DNA from: Mediterraneibacter gnavus ATCC 29149
GTDB taxonomy: Bacteria; Bacillota; Clostridia; Lachnospirales; Lachnospiraceae
DNA: 64,000 bases
Reading direction: 5' to 3'
Assembly: GCF_008121495.1 (NCBI RefSeq)
Contig: NZ_CP043051.1
Coordinates: 62,001-126,000 of the forward strand
The notes below the pieces were generated by a model, which was not told the origin of the DNA, ran no database searches, and was given only the letters and a program-made list of their open reading frames with translations. The position numbers were made by a program, and so were the translations under genes. Positions 1 to 7,494 of this stretch are shown here, piece by piece (the stretch's first letter is position 1; each line of letters begins with the position of its first letter).

Positions 1-1022
1 TTTGCCGCAATACTTCTCACATCTTCAAACCAGACTTCCTGCTCTCTTCCCTGATTTCTGTAAGTAAAATACGGGCTTTGAGCCTCCTGGTCATACTGAA
101 TTGGAGCACCGTATTCCACCGCAAGCCGTACAGCCCCTACATTACCGATCGTCTCTGCTTTTGTCACTCCTTTTTCATAAGGAAGGGTCCAGTTATACCC
201 ATAGTTCGGTATCCCCATCAGAAGCTTCTCAGCCGGGATCTGTGTCAGCGCATACTCTACCACCTGGCGGACTTTCGTAAGGGGTGCGACTGCCATGGGC
301 GGACCATAAGAATATCCCCACTCATAAGTCATCAGAAACAGCCGGTCTGCCTGTTCTCCCAGAAGTGCATAATCAATCCCCTCATAGAGCAGCCCTTTCT
401 GATCTGAAGACGTCTTGGGCGCCAGAGCCACTGACACGCGATATCCCTTTTCGTTCATGGCAGCCCGCAATTCTCCGACAAACTCGGCATATCCTTCCCT
501 GTTCTGCGCACGGACATATTCAAAATCTACATCCACGCCCACATATCCTTTTTCCTCCACCACCTTCAGCAGATTGGTAATCACATTTTCACGTACTGAT
601 TCTTCCTCCACCAGAGTCTGGATCAGCTGATTGTTAAAGACCCCCTGTGTAAACGGGGTCAGAACCAGCATCGGTTCTATCCCATTCTCCCAGGCCAGCT
701 GTATCATCCATGTTTCATCCTGTATGGGCGGAACCAACTCTCCTTCAAACGTAAAGCCATAAGAAAACACAAGCAGTTCATTGAGTGCCGGAAATGCCAT
801 CTCCAGCACATAAGGTTCAATAAAAGGATATGCATACCCTGTCACATACAAATCCTCTCGAATTTCCGCGCTCTCCTGCGGTTTTAATAAGAGCAGCGCC
901 TGCCCCACTGTCAGTTCTCCCTCTTCTCCCAGCTGATTATCATAAATAATCTTCCAGACGGGAACCCCACTTTGACGGGAGATCGAAGATACAGTATCTC
1001 CCGGTACTGTCACATAAATCAT
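1..1022 (-). CDS. LysM + glycoside hydrolase family 18 protein (SleL/YaaH-type), 3' end outside window
   Basis: Reading leftwards from an ATG at 1022 with AGGAGG eight bases upstream gives 340 codons that run off the window edge, so the C-terminus is missing. Residues 1-48 look like a LysM peptidoglycan-binding repeat (VPGDTVSSISRQSGV, then a second half ending LLLLKP). The rest matches a GH18 barrel: the catalytic DxDxE motif is DVDFE at about residues 164-168, and later strands read LLMGIPNYGYNW. No signal peptide is visible. LysM-GH18 proteins of this layout (SleL/YaaH family) are spore-coat enzymes that cleave cortex peptidoglycan during germination, so this gene suggests a spore former. 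That role is inferred from the family. Confidence is high for the domains and moderate for the spore role. Confidence 0.85.
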   Translation of the reverse strand, partial: MIYVTVPGDTVSSISRQSGVPVWKIIYDNQLGEEGELTVGQALLLLKPQESAEIREDLYVTGYAYPFIEPYVLEMAFPALNELLVFSYGFTFEGELVPPIQDETWMIQLAWENGIEPMLVLTPFTQGVFNNQLIQTLVEEESVRENVITNLLKVVEEKGYVGVDVDFEYVRAQNREGYAEFVGELRAAMNEKGYRVSVALAPKTSSDQKGLLYEGIDYALLGEQADRLFLMTYEWGYSYGPPMAVAPLTKVRQVVEYALTQIPAEKLLMGIPNYGYNWTLPYEKGVTKAETIGNVGAVRLAVEYGAPIQYDQEAQSPYFTYRNQGREQEVWFEDVRSIAA

Positions 1023-1092
1023 AAAAACACCTCCTGACTATCCTATGTCCGATAGCCGGGAGGTATTCGATAAATCAGTGTTTGAAAAACTG

Positions 1093-1121
1093 TTGACTTT
1101 TTTTGTAAAGTGGCATATCAT
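1093..1121 (+). promoter_or_regulatory. sigma-A-type promoter for the candidate antitoxin RNA
   Basis: TTGACT (1093-1098), a 17-base spacer, and TATCAT (1116-1121). Predicted start is near 1128. It faces a short stretch ending in a strong hairpin and U-tract at 1163-1199 with no open reading frame, so it probably drives a small RNA. Confidence 0.6.
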
Positions 1122-1127
1122 AATCTT

Positions 1128-1199
1128 AGCTAAGGAAATGGAGAATATTCCATAGTCAAAGTGAACCCCCAAGGAGGCCAGTCCTTGGGGGTTCTTTTT
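1128..1199 (+). ncRNA. candidate antisense antitoxin RNA (type I toxin-antitoxin)
   Basis: The stretch between the promoter at 1093-1121 and the terminator at 1163-1199 would give an RNA of about 70 nt. It contains a small hairpin (ATGGA ... TCCAT, 1138-1153) and then a 13-bp perfect terminator stem. It is convergent with the hydrophobic micropeptide gene at 1203-1298, so it would be complementary to the 3' untranslated part of that mRNA. Type I systems such as txpA/RatA and several in Clostridioides use convergent RNAs overlapping at their 3' ends. Function here is inference; no expression evidence is available. Confidence 0.5.
1163..1199 (+). terminator. strong intrinsic terminator of the candidate antitoxin RNA
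   Basis: Perfect 13-bp stem GAACCCCCAAGGA / TCCTTGGGGGTTC (1163-1175 and 1182-1194) with a 6-base loop, followed by TTTTT at 1195-1199. The U-tract is on the plus strand only; the minus strand continues ACTTTGAC, so the hairpin terminates plus-strand RNA best. Confidence 0.8.
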
Positions 1200-1202
1200 G
1201 GG

Positions 1203-1298
1203 CTAACTGTCTTTATCATTCCGGTCTAACCACTTGCGTATGTAGTAGCCAGCCACACTCACCATAACCGAAACAAGGAATCGGAGAATATAATCCAT
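1203..1298 (-). CDS. 31-residue hydrophobic micropeptide, candidate type I toxin
   Basis: ATG at 1298 is preceded by GGAGGTGAGACT, an excellent ribosome site. The peptide starts MDYILRFLVSVMVSV and has one membrane helix (about residues 3-20), then a charged tail rich in R, K and D ending at a TAG at 1203. This is the architecture of type I toxins in Firmicutes: one short transmembrane helix, a charged C-terminus and a convergent RNA at the 3' end. A promoter with an extended -10 lies upstream (1341-1349). The peptide resembles short proteins I recall from Lachnospiraceae and clostridial mobile elements, but I cannot confirm a family. It could instead be a harmless membrane micropeptide. The gene call is solid; toxicity is inferred. 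Confidence 0.7.
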   Translation of the reverse strand: MDYILRFLVSVMVSVAGYYIRKWLDRNDKDS

Positions 1299-1340
1299 AG
1301 TCTCACCTCCCTTCTGCTGGAAGGTTTCGACAGCATATTC

Positions 1341-1369
1341 ATCATATCACAGCATTTGTTTCTTTTCCA
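1341..1369 (-). promoter_or_regulatory. promoter for the micropeptide gene, extended -10
   Basis: On the minus strand the -10 is TATGAT (1341-1346) preceded by TGA, an extended -10 (TGnTATGAT). A weak -35, TGGAAA (1364-1369), sits 17 bases upstream. The predicted start near 1334 leaves about 35 bases before the ATG at 1298. Confidence 0.5.
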
Positions 1370-1394
1370 TGCATTTTTTCAATTCTACAGAGTC

Positions 1395-1433
1395 AAAAAA
1401 ACGCCATCTATGTCCCCATAGAATGGCGTTTTT
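1395..1433 (-). terminator. terminator of the pheS-pheT-queA operon
   Basis: On the minus strand AACGCCAT.CTATG pairs with CATAG.ATGGCGTT around a short loop, followed by a run of seven T. It starts just past the queA stop codon. Confidence 0.85.
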
Positions 1434-1439
1434 CTTCCT

Positions 1440-2465
1440 CTATAAAATAATCATCGCATCTCCGAAGCTGAAAAAACGATACCGTTCTTTCACTGCCTCT
1501 TCATAGGCTGCCATGACATGCTCTTTTCCCGCCAGTGCAGATACCAGCATGATCAGTGTAGATTCCGGCAGATGGAAATTTGTGATCAGCCCATCTAATA
1601 TCTTAAACTGATATCCCGGATAGATAAAAATTTCTGTCCAGCCGCTGCAAGGCTTTAAGCGTCCGTTCTCGTCCGCCGCAGATTCGATGGTACGGCAGCT
1701 CGTCGTTCCCACACAGATCACACGGCCTCCATGTTCTTTGGCTTTGTTGATCTTCTCTGCCGCTTCTGCATCCACCATGTAAAACTCCGAATGCATATGG
1801 TGCTCGGTCACATCCTCCACTTTCACCGGGCGGAATGTGCCCAGTCCGACATGAAGTGTCACTCTTGCAATATCCACGCCTTTTTCCTGAATTTCTTTCA
1901 AAAGCTTCGGAGTAAAATGAAGCCCCGCAGTCGGTGCTGCAGCTGAACCTTCGTGAGCTGCATACACCGTATTATAACGGCTTCTGTCTTCCAGCTGGTG
2001 GGTAATATATGGAGGAAGCGGCATCTGACCAAGCTGGTCTAAAATCTCCTCAAAGATTCCCTTATACTCAAAGTGAATCAGACGGTTTCCCTCTTCTACC
2101 ACATCCACAACCTCGCCGACCAGAAGTCCTTCTCCGAAACTGATCCTGGTTCCCGGTTTTGCTTTTTTCCCCGGTTTTACCAGTGTTTCCCACACATCGT
2201 TTTCTCCGCGCTTCAACAGGAGGACCTCGATCTTGGCACCGGTGCCTTCTTTTTCTCCGATCAGGCGTGCCGGAATTACTTTTGTATCGTTGATGACCAG
2301 ACAGTCTCCCGGATTCAGATAATCGATCACATCCCGAAAGATATGATGCTCTGTTTTCCCTGTCTCTTTATCCAGAAACAATAATCTGGAACCGGAGCGA
2401 TCCTCCAGAGGATCCTGTGCGATCAGTTCCTCCGGCAGGTCATAATAAAAATCACTTGTTTTCAA
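1440..2465 (-). CDS. queA: S-adenosylmethionine:tRNA ribosyltransferase-isomerase QueA
   Basis: A 341-residue protein of the usual QueA length. It transfers and isomerises the ribosyl group of S-adenosylmethionine onto preQ1 in the tRNA wobble position, giving epoxyqueuosine. Family motifs are visible: [10 protein letters not shown] near residues 59-68, PLPPYI at 149-154, [10 protein letters not shown] at 176-185 and a C-terminal [16 protein letters not shown] segment. The start is a TTG at 2465 with GAGGG six bases upstream. It is the last gene of the pheS-pheT-queA unit, about 30 bases after pheT and just before a terminator. QueH, which performs the next reduction, is encoded separately near 16.3-16.9 kb. 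Confidence 0.93.
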
Positions 2466-2495
2466 TGATATCCCTCTTTCTAAACAGACTCGGTC

Positions 2496-4916
2496 CTATT
2501 TTCTCAGCTCGATTCCCATCTCTTCCAGTGCTTTTAAGATCCGGTTCATCGCAGAAGTTACATCCGCCTCTTCCAGAGTCTTATCCTTTGCACGGAATAC
2601 GATAGAATATGCAACGGATTTGAATCCGGCTTTGATCTGACTTCCTTCATACAGGTCAAACAGTGCATAGCTTTCCAGATATGCTCCGCCTTTTTTCTCG
2701 ATCACATCTTCAATCTGTCCTACCAGGATCTCTTTTGGCACTACCATACTGATATCTCTTGTCACAGCAGGGTACTTTGCGATTCCTGTATATTTTCTGT
2801 CAAAAGTTGCATACGGAATGATCTCCGGCATATCCAGTACTGCTACATATGCGCGTTCCCCGATTCCGTAAGTATCGGCAACTTCCGGATGTACCTCTCC
2901 CAGATATCCGACTACTTTTCCATCGTAAATGATATTTGCCTGGCGCCCAGGATGCAGATATGTTTTTCCTGCATTTGGATCGTATGTTTCTTTTTCGTTC
3001 ATTCCGATCTTCTCAAAGAATTCTTCTACTACACCCTTCATGCTGAAGAAATCCCCTTCTCCATACATTCCCAGAGTAAACTGCATTCTTTCCTCCGGAA
3101 GCTCTGTGATCGGAAGCTGTTTTGGCAGATAAATATTTCCAAGTTCGTAAAGTCTTACATTTTTGTTTCTGCGGTTATAGTTTGTCGCAAGAGATGTGAG
3201 CATTCCATTTAAGGATGTCGTTCTCATCACACTATAATCTTCTCCCAGTGGGTTCATGATCTCCACTGTTTCTCTCAATTTCGAATCTGCCGGGATTCTC
3301 AGTTTGTCAAACACCTTCGGGCTCTCGAATGAATAGGTCATTCCCTGGCTGAATCCGCAGAATTCGGCGATATCTTTTGCCACATCTTCGATTCTCAGTT
3401 TGAAGGACAGTTTTCCTGTTGTGGCCTCTCCCTTTGGAAGTGTCGTCGGAATATTATCATATCCAAAGAATCTTGCAACCTCTTCTGCCAGATCTGCAAT
3501 TCTGAACAGATCATGACGGAATGTCGGTGCGATCACTTCCTTTGCTGCTTCATCATATTCCAGACTGATCTTTGCGAAATAACCAAGCATCTCTTCTTCT
3601 GAAATCGAAGTTCCCAGCATTGCATTGATCTTGTCTGCATCAAATGGAACTCTTACCGGTTCTTTTACTTTTCCGTAAACATCCACGGTTCCGCCAACCA
3701 CTTCTCCGGCGCCTAATTCTTCTACTAACTGGCAGGCTCTGTCAATGGCTGCTTTTGCATTGTTCGGATCCAGACCCTTTTCAAATTTTCCGGAAGCATC
3801 TGTACGAAGCCCTACTCTCTTTGAAGATTTTCGGATGTTGACACCGTCAAAGCATGCTGCCTCAAAGAGCATGGTCTTGACATCATCTGTGATCATGGAG
3901 TTTTCCCCACCCATGATACCGGCAATTCCGACTGCTTTTTCTCCGTCACAGATCATCAGGACATCCTTGTCCATGATACGCTCCTGTCCGTCAAGTGTGG
4001 TAAATTTCTCTCCATCCTGTGCAGTTTTTACAACAATCTCATGACCTGCGATCGTATCCAGATCATAGGCATGCATCGGCTGTCCGTACTCTTCCATCAC
4101 ATAGTTTGTAATATCCACCAGATTGTTGATCGGACGAATTCCTACAGATGCCAGCCTTCTCTGCATCCATTTTGGAGACGGACCGATTTTAATATTTTTT
4201 ACCACTCTTGCACAGTATCTCGGACACAGATCGGCATCTTCTACTGTTACTTTTATATAATCGTTGACATCTTCTCCATTTCCTGTCTCTTTCACGATTG
4301 GAGGAACAAACTCTTTGTTGAATGTAGCGGCTGCTTCTCTTGCGATTCCAAGTACGCTGTAGCAGTCTACACGGTTGGATGTCACTTCATACTCAAATAC
4401 CACATCGTTTCTGTCAAGCGCTTCAATCGCACTTGCTCCGATTTCGGCATCCTCCGGGAAGATATAGATTCCGTCTTCCGGAGCCTCCGGATACATATCT
4501 GTCGTAGAACCCAGCTCCTCGATAGAACACATCATACCAAAACTTGCCACTCCGCGGAGCTTGCCTTTTTTGATCTTGATTCCGCCCGGAACTTTCTGTC
4601 CCGGCTCATGTCCCCCTGCCACGCGTCCACCGTCCAGTACGACCGGCACTTTTGCACCTTCAAATACATTTTTCGCACCTGTTACGATCTGTACTGTCTC
4701 TGTTCCTACATTCACCTGACATACGACCAGTTTGTCTGCATCCGGGTGCTTTTCAATCTTATCGATCTGACCAATGACAATCTTTTCCAGATCTGCATCC
4801 AGCTGTTCATAGCCCTCTACTTTTGTTCCTGACAATGTCATTGCATCTGTATATTCCTGCGCTGTCACGTCCAGATCCGGGACATACGCTTTTAACCATG
4901 ATAAAGAAGTATTCAT
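2496..4916 (-). CDS. pheT: phenylalanyl-tRNA synthetase beta subunit
   Basis: An 806-residue protein, the normal length for bacterial PheT. In order it has an N-terminal tRNA-binding OB-fold of the EMAP type (about residues 40-150, with IVIGQIDKIEKHPDADKL), the B3/4 editing domain, the B5 domain, the inactive synthetase-like core and a C-terminal anticodon-binding FDX-ACB domain (from about 710, ending ILKALEEMGIELRK). It forms the alpha2-beta2 enzyme with PheS, encoded directly upstream with about 30 bases between. The ATG at 4916 follows AGGAATAGG. Expression should follow the T-box in front of pheS. Confidence 0.96.
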   Translation of the reverse strand: MNTSLSWLKAYVPDLDVTAQEYTDAMTLSGTKVEGYEQLDADLEKIVIGQIDKIEKHPDADKLVVCQVNVGTETVQIVTGAKNVFEGAKVPVVLDGGRVAGGHEPGQKVPGGIKIKKGKLRGVASFGMMCSIEELGSTTDMYPEAPEDGIYIFPEDAEIGASAIEALDRNDVVFEYEVTSNRVDCYSVLGIAREAAATFNKEFVPPIVKETGNGEDVNDYIKVTVEDADLCPRYCARVVKNIKIGPSPKWMQRRLASVGIRPINNLVDITNYVMEEYGQPMHAYDLDTIAGHEIVVKTAQDGEKFTTLDGQERIMDKDVLMICDGEKAVGIAGIMGGENSMITDDVKTMLFEAACFDGVNIRKSSKRVGLRTDASGKFEKGLDPNNAKAAIDRACQLVEELGAGEVVGGTVDVYGKVKEPVRVPFDADKINAMLGTSISEEEMLGYFAKISLEYDEAAKEVIAPTFRHDLFRIADLAEEVARFFGYDNIPTTLPKGEATTGKLSFKLRIEDVAKDIAEFCGFSQGMTYSFESPKVFDKLRIPADSKLRETVEIMNPLGEDYSVMRTTSLNGMLTSLATNYNRRNKNVRLYELGNIYLPKQLPITELPEERMQFTLGMYGEGDFFSMKGVVEEFFEKIGMNEKETYDPNAGKTYLHPGRQANIIYDGKVVGYLGEVHPEVADTYGIGERAYVAVLDMPEIIPYATFDRKYTGIAKYPAVTRDISMVVPKEILVGQIEDVIEKKGGAYLESYALFDLYEGSQIKAGFKSVAYSIVFRAKDKTLEEADVTSAMNRILKALEEMGIELRK

Positions 4917-6002: not shown

Positions 6003-6287
6003 TGAAAAAAACTCCATCCCAAAAGGGACGAAGTCTGTATTCGCGGTACCACCCTAATTCCCACAGTCTTCCTGTGAGCACTTGGTCTTGTGTAACGTAC
6101 AATAGACGGCACTTTCTACTCTGAAATCATTTCAAAAATGCAGCTTACGTGGGAATTTCGATTGCCGTCTGAACCAAAGAAGGCTTACAGCCAGTGACCT
6201 TCTCTCTCTGATGGAAAACAGTTCTCTACTGTGCACGCTCATCGCTTTTCATATCCTGATTCATTTTTCAAATTTAAGACAAATTTA
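6003..6287 (-). ncRNA. T-box riboswitch (Phe) upstream of pheS
   Basis: The minus strand contains the canonical T-box sequence AGGGTGGTACCGCG (6042-6055), followed at once by a terminator hairpin (GACTTCGTCCC TTTT GGGATGGAGTTTTTTT, about 6003-6037). The distal Stem I shows the AGAGA element near 6200-6208 and its GGCTGTAAG loop. The best specifier codon is UUC at 6171-6173 (context GGTTCAGAC), encoding Phe, which fits the downstream gene. Uncharged tRNA-Phe pairing with UUC and with the T-box bulge would open the terminator. The 5' end is estimated from the promoter at 6294-6322. Confidence 0.92.
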
Positions 6288-7254: not shown

Positions 7255-7494
7255 AAATAAGGGAATGAAATCAGCCTGTGCTAAATTTCATTCCCTTTTA
7301 TCTTCTGTAGAATCCCCAAAATGCCGTTCCCTGTATTTTGACTCCTAGCACGCAAGCTAGGTGGGCAACCGCATCTGCTTTTCTGTCTTCCACTGCATAA
7401 CGGAGGCTTGACATATTACAGAAATATAAGAATCCCGTTTAAAGTATTGTAGGTTCAAAATAACAAGGTTATCGAACATCTCAGGTTTTCCGTT
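7255..7494 (-). ncRNA. ssrS: 6S RNA (SsrS) candidate
   Basis: This gene-free stretch has a near-perfect promoter (7501-7529), a structured body and a terminator-like hairpin (7261-7295), giving an RNA of up to about 240 nt. Near the 5' end it reads TTTTGAACCTACAATACTTT, then a long run of paired segments including CCTAGC TTGCGT GCTAGG. I recognise this layout and the AACCTACAATACTTTAAACGGG stretch from clostridial 6S RNAs, which bind sigma-A RNA polymerase and mimic an open promoter. The identification comes from memory and structure. The true 3' end may be shorter after processing. Confidence 0.65.
7261..7295 (-). terminator. hairpin at the 3' end of the 6S RNA candidate
   Basis: Perfect 11-bp stem GGGAATGAAAT / ATTTCATTCCC with a 13-base loop. 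The minus-strand tail is TTATTTC, a modest U-tract; the plus-strand tail is TTTTATCTT. It may work in both directions. Confidence 0.55.

Follow-up and report, generated by a model that had tools for sequence, protein, structure and literature searches.

A probable par/Fst-like type I toxin-antitoxin module with an unannotated peptide branch in Mediterraneibacter gnavus

Introduction

In Mediterraneibacter gnavus ATCC 29149, near the start of the 64,000-nucleotide stretch of DNA analysed here (the window), a 31-codon frame on the minus strand lies between two genes and faces a promoter-like site and a hairpin on the plus strand. Does this arrangement form a type I toxin-antitoxin module, as a preliminary description of the DNA had proposed, and which known system does it most resemble? 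The proposal is supported by a repeat over the start codon, the convergent layout and an anatomy that is kept in relatives, and we consider it very probable, judging from the sequence, that the locus is a type I module acting like par/Fst of pAD1. The features given for par in the sections of PMC7472228 used here are convergent promoters, a bidirectional terminator, direct repeats that sequester the start, and a 5' stem-loop. Our comparisons with the literature draw on parts of PMC7472228, PMC6563280, PMC3543317 and PMC10903887.

Results

Anatomy of the locus

The features of the locus are collected in Table 1. As first described, the 31-residue peptide has a strong ribosome site, GGGAGGTGA, just before the ATG of its frame, and the layout is indeed convergent, the plus-strand promoter-like site and the hairpin facing the minus-strand peptide gene. 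Convergent promoters, seen as consensus matches at the locus and in promoter scores across 143 loci, flank the unit. On the plus strand TTTTT stands directly 3' of the 13-pair hairpin (hairpin plus tract, 1163-1199). The shared hairpin was reported as a terminator for the antitoxin direction only; the terminator scan reported none in the toxin direction, in which only ACTTTGAC comes after the hairpin and the T tract is short. Window positions 1-4000 contain 7 promoter-like sites against 5.5 expected and 6 terminator-like sites against 2.7 expected, and the promoter and terminator consensus matches at the locus are, alone, near chance. With gathering thresholds Rfam placed no family here; elsewhere in the window it reported a T-box leader (6021-6251, minus strand) and a 6S RNA (7309-7490, minus strand).

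Table 1. Positions of the module and its flanking genes in the window
Feature	Position	Strand	Basis or remark
Flanking gene, presumably for a LysM/glycoside-hydrolase-18-like protein	3..1022	minus	ORF list; cut by the window edge
Putative antitoxin promoter, TTGACT-17-TATCAT	1093..1121	plus	10/12 consensus matches
Putative antitoxin RNA, about 72 nt	1128..1199	plus	inferred from promoter and terminator
Direct repeat copy B, 5' part of the antitoxin RNA	1132..1160		repeat alignment; geometry kept in relatives
Hairpin of 13 pairs common to both RNAs; loop GGCCAG on the plus and CTGGCC on the minus strand	1163..1194	both	antitoxin-RNA terminator; possible toxin-mRNA terminator
Putative toxin gene, 31-codon ATG frame, peptide MDYILRFLVSVMVSVAGYYIRKWLDRNDKDS	1298-1206, stop 1205-1203	minus	ORF list and conservation in relatives
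Direct repeat copy A, over toxin start codon and ribosome site; counterpart of one par direct repeat	1275..1305		repeat alignment
Shine-Dalgarno region of the toxin mRNA, GGGAGGTGA	1303..1311	minus	sequence; longest ribosome-site class
5' stem-loop ACCTTCC-agcagaa-GGGAGGT, predicted to mask the Shine-Dalgarno sequence	1305..1325	minus	predicted fold of the leader
Putative toxin promoter, TGGAAA-17-TATGAT, extended -10	1341..1369	minus	9/12 consensus matches; predicted start about 1334
Flanking gene, taken to be queA	1440..2465	minus	ORF list

What raises the locus above chance is a direct repeat, together with an anatomy that is kept in relatives. The two copies, which run in the same direction on the plus strand, are identical in 25 of 31 columns by our own count, with one 2-nt gap; their alignment scores 19.8, whereas the best of 300 shuffles gives 12.8. 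Because copy B repeats the start region, the plus-strand RNA is complementary to the peptide mRNA both at its start and at its 3' hairpin. The preliminary description had placed the contact between the two RNAs at the hairpin in the 3' untranslated part; that complementarity stands, and the main contact, at the start-codon repeat, had been missed. A complementarity of about 29 nt over the start region would make a blocked translation start the likely mode of antitoxin action.

Two further features of the locus could be followed across its relatives. Predicted pairing of the Shine-Dalgarno sequence with its own leader averages 0.69 over 157 unique leaders, compared with 0.54 for shuffled leaders, which often pair this sequence as well; 109 of the 157 lie above the mean of their own shuffles (Wilcoxon p = 1e-9, relatedness ignored). 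Antitoxin promoters score at least 9 in 135 of 143 loci (mean 10.5, shuffled 7.15) and toxin promoters in 102 (mean 9.2, shuffled 7.2). Strong antitoxin promoters and weaker toxin promoters would fit an antitoxin that is made in excess.

The pattern written for the branch is ..SVxAGVxxYYICKWLD... In the alignment of 41 members W23, which stands between the membrane helix and the charged tail, is invariant (41/41), and V11, I20, K22, L24 and D25 are nearly so. Within the membrane helix the window peptide has S10xxxS14 and is without P/D/S/TxxxG; many relatives have SxxxG.

The anatomy is kept in relatives

At E 0.1, own genome included, peptide matches occur in 19 of 58 same-genus genomes, although we take one of them (L017) to be false. 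On the same terms the count for the host family is 88 of 299 genomes, an upper figure because the weakest matches include frames of several hundred residues. A pattern scan of a species-genome collection yielded at least 340 relatives, and the 80 kept for analysis come mostly from Lachnospiraceae, with others from Oscillospiraceae, Ruminococcus flavefaciens, Phascolarctobacterium and one Tissierellia MAG. For the 77 with enough downstream DNA (L081, L089 and L090, at contig ends, were left out), we aligned the start region of each locus to the DNA past the stop, comparing own with cross-locus pairs. Own pairs score 18.3 on average, versus 8.9 for cross-locus pairs (sd 1.8, 99th percentile 15.0). 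The cross-locus percentile is reached by 66 of the 77, the repeat beats 200 shuffles in 67, and 64 score highest with their own downstream region among all 77. Low scores for cross-locus pairs within one family mean that the repeat is specific to its locus, which is what an antitoxin needs. Eleven named loci fall under the percentile, and 8 of these belong to the upstream variant described below. Peptide and hairpin, whose co-occurrence the preliminary description had suggested checking, do travel together: 67 of the 77 relatives have a hairpin of at least 10 pairs no more than 100 nt from the stop.

The association of peptide and antisense unit also held when homologues without such a unit were sought. 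Among 125 loci, which are non-independent because several were fetched twice (e.g. L024/L060 and L025/L064), 111 have a downstream unit, 10 an upstream unit and 4 are unclassified, two of these being explained on inspection and one borderline, with 12.4 where the threshold is 13. The count left out L017 as a false match, L018 at a contig end, and L045 and L048, whose starts were badly set; the script also mis-set the start codons of L126 and L153. Another 25 loci comprised 20 with a downstream unit, 3 with an upstream unit, of which two duplicate L025 and L027, and 2 with neither (L224 and L226). That some relatives have no antitoxin was considered for the MEYI/MELI group and rejected when its unit turned up upstream.

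A second copy of the peptide motif is present in 7 of 132 loci. In five of the seven, toxins score 16.0-22.2 with their own antitoxin and 6.6-10.0 with that of the neighbour. At L103 the own scores are 12.8 and 18.6 and the cross scores 8.4 and 11.4, and the first copy looks degenerate; the two copies at L067 both belong to the upstream type.

A variant with the antitoxin unit upstream

The 10 upstream rows among the 125 reduce to 9 distinct loci, and with L229 and the second L067 copy the variant comprises 11 distinct units (L064, which is the same as L025; L067, with two copies; L068, L071, L077, L087, L093, L099, L027 and L229). Their order, with promoters placed by eye, is hairpin, repeat copy, leftward antitoxin promoter, rightward toxin promoter, toxin and the toxin's own hairpin, so that the antitoxin unit is divergent from the toxin. 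Because the two RNAs share no terminator in this form, their loops need not be complementary. Both hairpins were found in seven of the 11 units (the script found no upstream hairpin in L087, L099, L067b or L027), and the loop cores agree in all seven, which are not seven independent events because several are close relatives. The core is CTGGCA in five units, CTAGCA in L093 and CTGCAA in L229. The stems of each hairpin pair differ wholly or outside the innermost pairs, and loops that match despite such stems suggest that loop-loop pairing is selected.

A different rearrangement was seen at L138, where the antitoxin part of the module reads opposite to the usual direction; we take the gene beside this module to be erm(B)-like.

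Empty sites, plasmids and phages

Counting its own genome, queA is matched in 53 of the 58 genomes of the genus, and 30 of these queA loci, that of the window among them, were fetched. The peptide motif occurs within 600 nt downstream of queA in none of the 29 other loci, 6 of which had less DNA than that. In two same-genus loci, L262 and L266, both window flanking genes are adjacent without the module, and the glycoside-hydrolase-like neighbour starts 76 bp and 61 bp after queA, respectively, versus 421 bp in the window; at L240 this neighbour starts at +1067. Because the flanking genes adjoin without it in two same-genus genomes, the window module is probably an acquired cassette. The locus had been described as possibly a stable resident system, which these empty sites render doubtful. 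No mobility gene was seen beside the module in window positions 1-3000. A conserved gene neighbourhood was considered and rejected: among the loci fetched by then only L042 also lies near queA, in the opposite relative orientation (coordinates by eye).

Relatives also lie on mobile replicons. Matches at E 1 cover 394 plasmid records, 331 of them from Enterococcus and 34 from Streptococcus (including pSpnP1), and 11 phage records; 48 viral contigs carry relatives. We fetched 61 plasmid, phage and viral loci, of which 58 were classifiable (L155, L157 and L172 were left out) and 53 have a downstream repeat; it is present in 10 of 11 plasmid loci and in 2 of 2 phage-record loci. The five unclassified are L159, L171, L175 and L178, where the script apparently took an internal ATG, and L206, which scored 11.8. 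No annotated feature lies under the 20 best and 45 spread plasmid matches listed, the PLSDB gene table being incomplete. Conjugative plasmids from Enterococcus hirae and E. faecium (L207, L208 and L209) carry unannotated peptides of this branch, with HYICKWLD, accompanied by a downstream repeat and a hairpin. In the small Streptococcus pneumoniae plasmid pSpnP1 (L199), which has a Zot-domain gene, the module lies close to replication genes, and so it does in a filamentous-phage record, bajarodino virus 68, Inoviridae (L210). These two loci suggest that the module is used by small replicons.

Comparison with Fst profiles and with pTEF1 fst

Single scans of Pfam and NCBIfam gave no match to the window peptide, and searches with the Fst models PF13955 and NF033608 gave none up to E 10. 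In PHROGs the matches were limited to four unnamed families, none better than E 0.046, and no PDB chain matched the peptide alignment up to E 10. For the 41 members the Fst models reach E 0.016 (NCBIfam, 4 members) and E 0.12 (Pfam, 1 member); when ten members were scanned singly, one matched NF033608 with 15 bits against a cut-off of 26. In the own genome and 199 phylum genomes the Pfam Fst model found nothing over its cut-off, with five weak rows.

Comparison of profiles, using 11 Fst sequences, gave a probability of 96.1 and a score of 37.0. When the membrane columns were permuted with WLD kept, none of 100 permutations reached 37.0 (mean 25.5, best 35.1 with probability 95.6). Masking WLD lowered the probability to 75, and with the membrane part alone the probability was 33.5. 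The profile comparison links the branch to Fst, which could reflect common descent or convergence. The G-to-W spacing and the S-for-P exchange fit the SxxxG clade mentioned for Fst in the sections of PMC7472228 used here; the window peptide itself has S at the G position.

The same scripts were applied to pTEF1 fst (L139). They found a repeat scoring 22.2-22.4 over the GTG start, its other copy lying at +76..118, and a hairpin of 15 pairs at +42..77, a geometry equal to that of the window locus. Ten of 12 plasmid Fst matches score at least 19.4 and two do not (L148, 8.0; L150, 9.6). The U-turn YUNR loop, absent from some par homologues according to the part of PMC7472228 consulted, is matched in the toxin-strand loop of the window (CUGG) and in 36 of 138 hairpins overall. 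Our limited literature search found no published name for the peptide branch. We take asparagiforme to belong to the Lachnospiraceae. Because of this, and because commensal Clostridia are among the Fst hosts in the sections of PMC7472228 used here, some members of the branch may already be counted as Fst-like.

Discussion

The anatomy, its conservation, the locus-specific complementarity and the empty sites in relatives are properties of the DNA, and from them we infer how the module might work, from its transcripts and their amounts to the order of pairing, toxicity, action on the membrane and a role in addiction. A minus-strand mRNA from about 1334 would encode a one-helix membrane peptide, an excess of which would harm the cell's own membrane functions. 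The Shine-Dalgarno sequence of this mRNA would start out folded into the 5' stem-loop, and the plus-strand RNA would be made in excess from its stronger promoter. The two would presumably meet loop to loop at their complementary hairpins; pairing would then extend over the direct-repeat region and cover the Shine-Dalgarno sequence and the start codon. The peptide would remain unmade while the module is present, and loss of the module or of its short-lived antitoxin would free the mRNA.

Other explanations share parts of this picture. The peptide could be a useful, non-toxic small membrane protein, such as a regulator of a membrane enzyme, that is silenced by an antisense RNA, and the sections of PMC7472228 used here lend this some plausibility in reporting chromosomal par copies with no deletion phenotype and possible metabolic links. 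We regard it as highly improbable: an addiction cassette agrees better with the patchy presence within the genus, the empty sites, the carriage on plasmids and phages, and a queA neighbour that recurs at just one other of the loci retrieved up to that point. That the whole is accidental, with an open frame between two genes, an ordinary terminator and an antisense promoter that is mere noise, would agree with promoter-like and terminator-like counts near expectation, yet none of 300 shuffles scores as high as the repeat, and all parts of the anatomy are seen again in more than 100 loci. This reading is already refuted because the anatomy is conserved, and we give it next to no weight.

It is also highly improbable, in our estimate, that the module is of the Clostridioides difficile kind, in which toxin and antitoxin RNAs make contact through overlapping 3' ends. 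The layout is convergent, the picture is near that of the preliminary description, and the C. difficile type I model NF047374 matches 20 of the 41 members, with a best E of 3.2e-4. The window peptide, however, has no match to NF047374; single scans of ten members gave six matches, all confined to the membrane part, with 12.3-17.3 bits where the cut-off is 60; and the start-codon repeat provides a second, longer contact. The locus is most likely a genuine par/Fst-like type I module with a peptide of an unannotated branch, and probably acquired.

A broader reading is one that we favour with some reserve: that these peptides form an unnamed, horizontally spread toxin family, apart from Fst in sequence and under par-like control, in Clostridia, in phages and on plasmids of enterococci and streptococci, and that in a permuted subset, with the antitoxin upstream, divergent and without a common terminator, the loops are kept in step, so that loop-loop pairing would be under selection in its own right. 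Present annotation would lack a common class of addiction module, to judge from the family genomes (an upper figure) and plasmid records counted above. Self-matching antitoxins, insulated two-copy loci and permuted loci make up a defined test set for how antisense specificity persists with many near-identical toxins per genome.

Among known systems, Ldr/Rdl of enterobacteria likewise has a small W-containing membrane peptide, and Ldr (PF13940) matches 2 of the 41 members weakly (best E 0.035), but Ldr/Rdl is without the convergent layout of the window locus. The C. difficile type I toxins share a small hydrophobic peptide and an antisense RNA; the branch falls far under the NF047374 cut-off, and we know of no start-region repeats in the C. 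difficile systems, whereas in the window module that repeat is the longer contact. In the part of PMC7472228 consulted, ldr/rdl regulation stands nearer hok/sok. The preliminary description could not place the peptide in a named family, and this holds in part: the peptides of the branch lie under the curated Fst cut-offs, reading ..SVxAG/SVxxYYICKWLD.. versus ..APxxVG.. in Fst, the U-turn loop is mostly absent, and the antitoxin unit is shifted upstream in a subset of loci. The arrangement, in turn, has the anatomy of par/Fst, with convergent promoters, a shared hairpin, direct repeats at the start codon, a predicted 5' stem-loop masking the Shine-Dalgarno sequence, equal spacing of repeat and hairpin, and a one-helix peptide of about 30 residues with W-L-D ahead of a charged tail, and the module looks as if it works like par/Fst.
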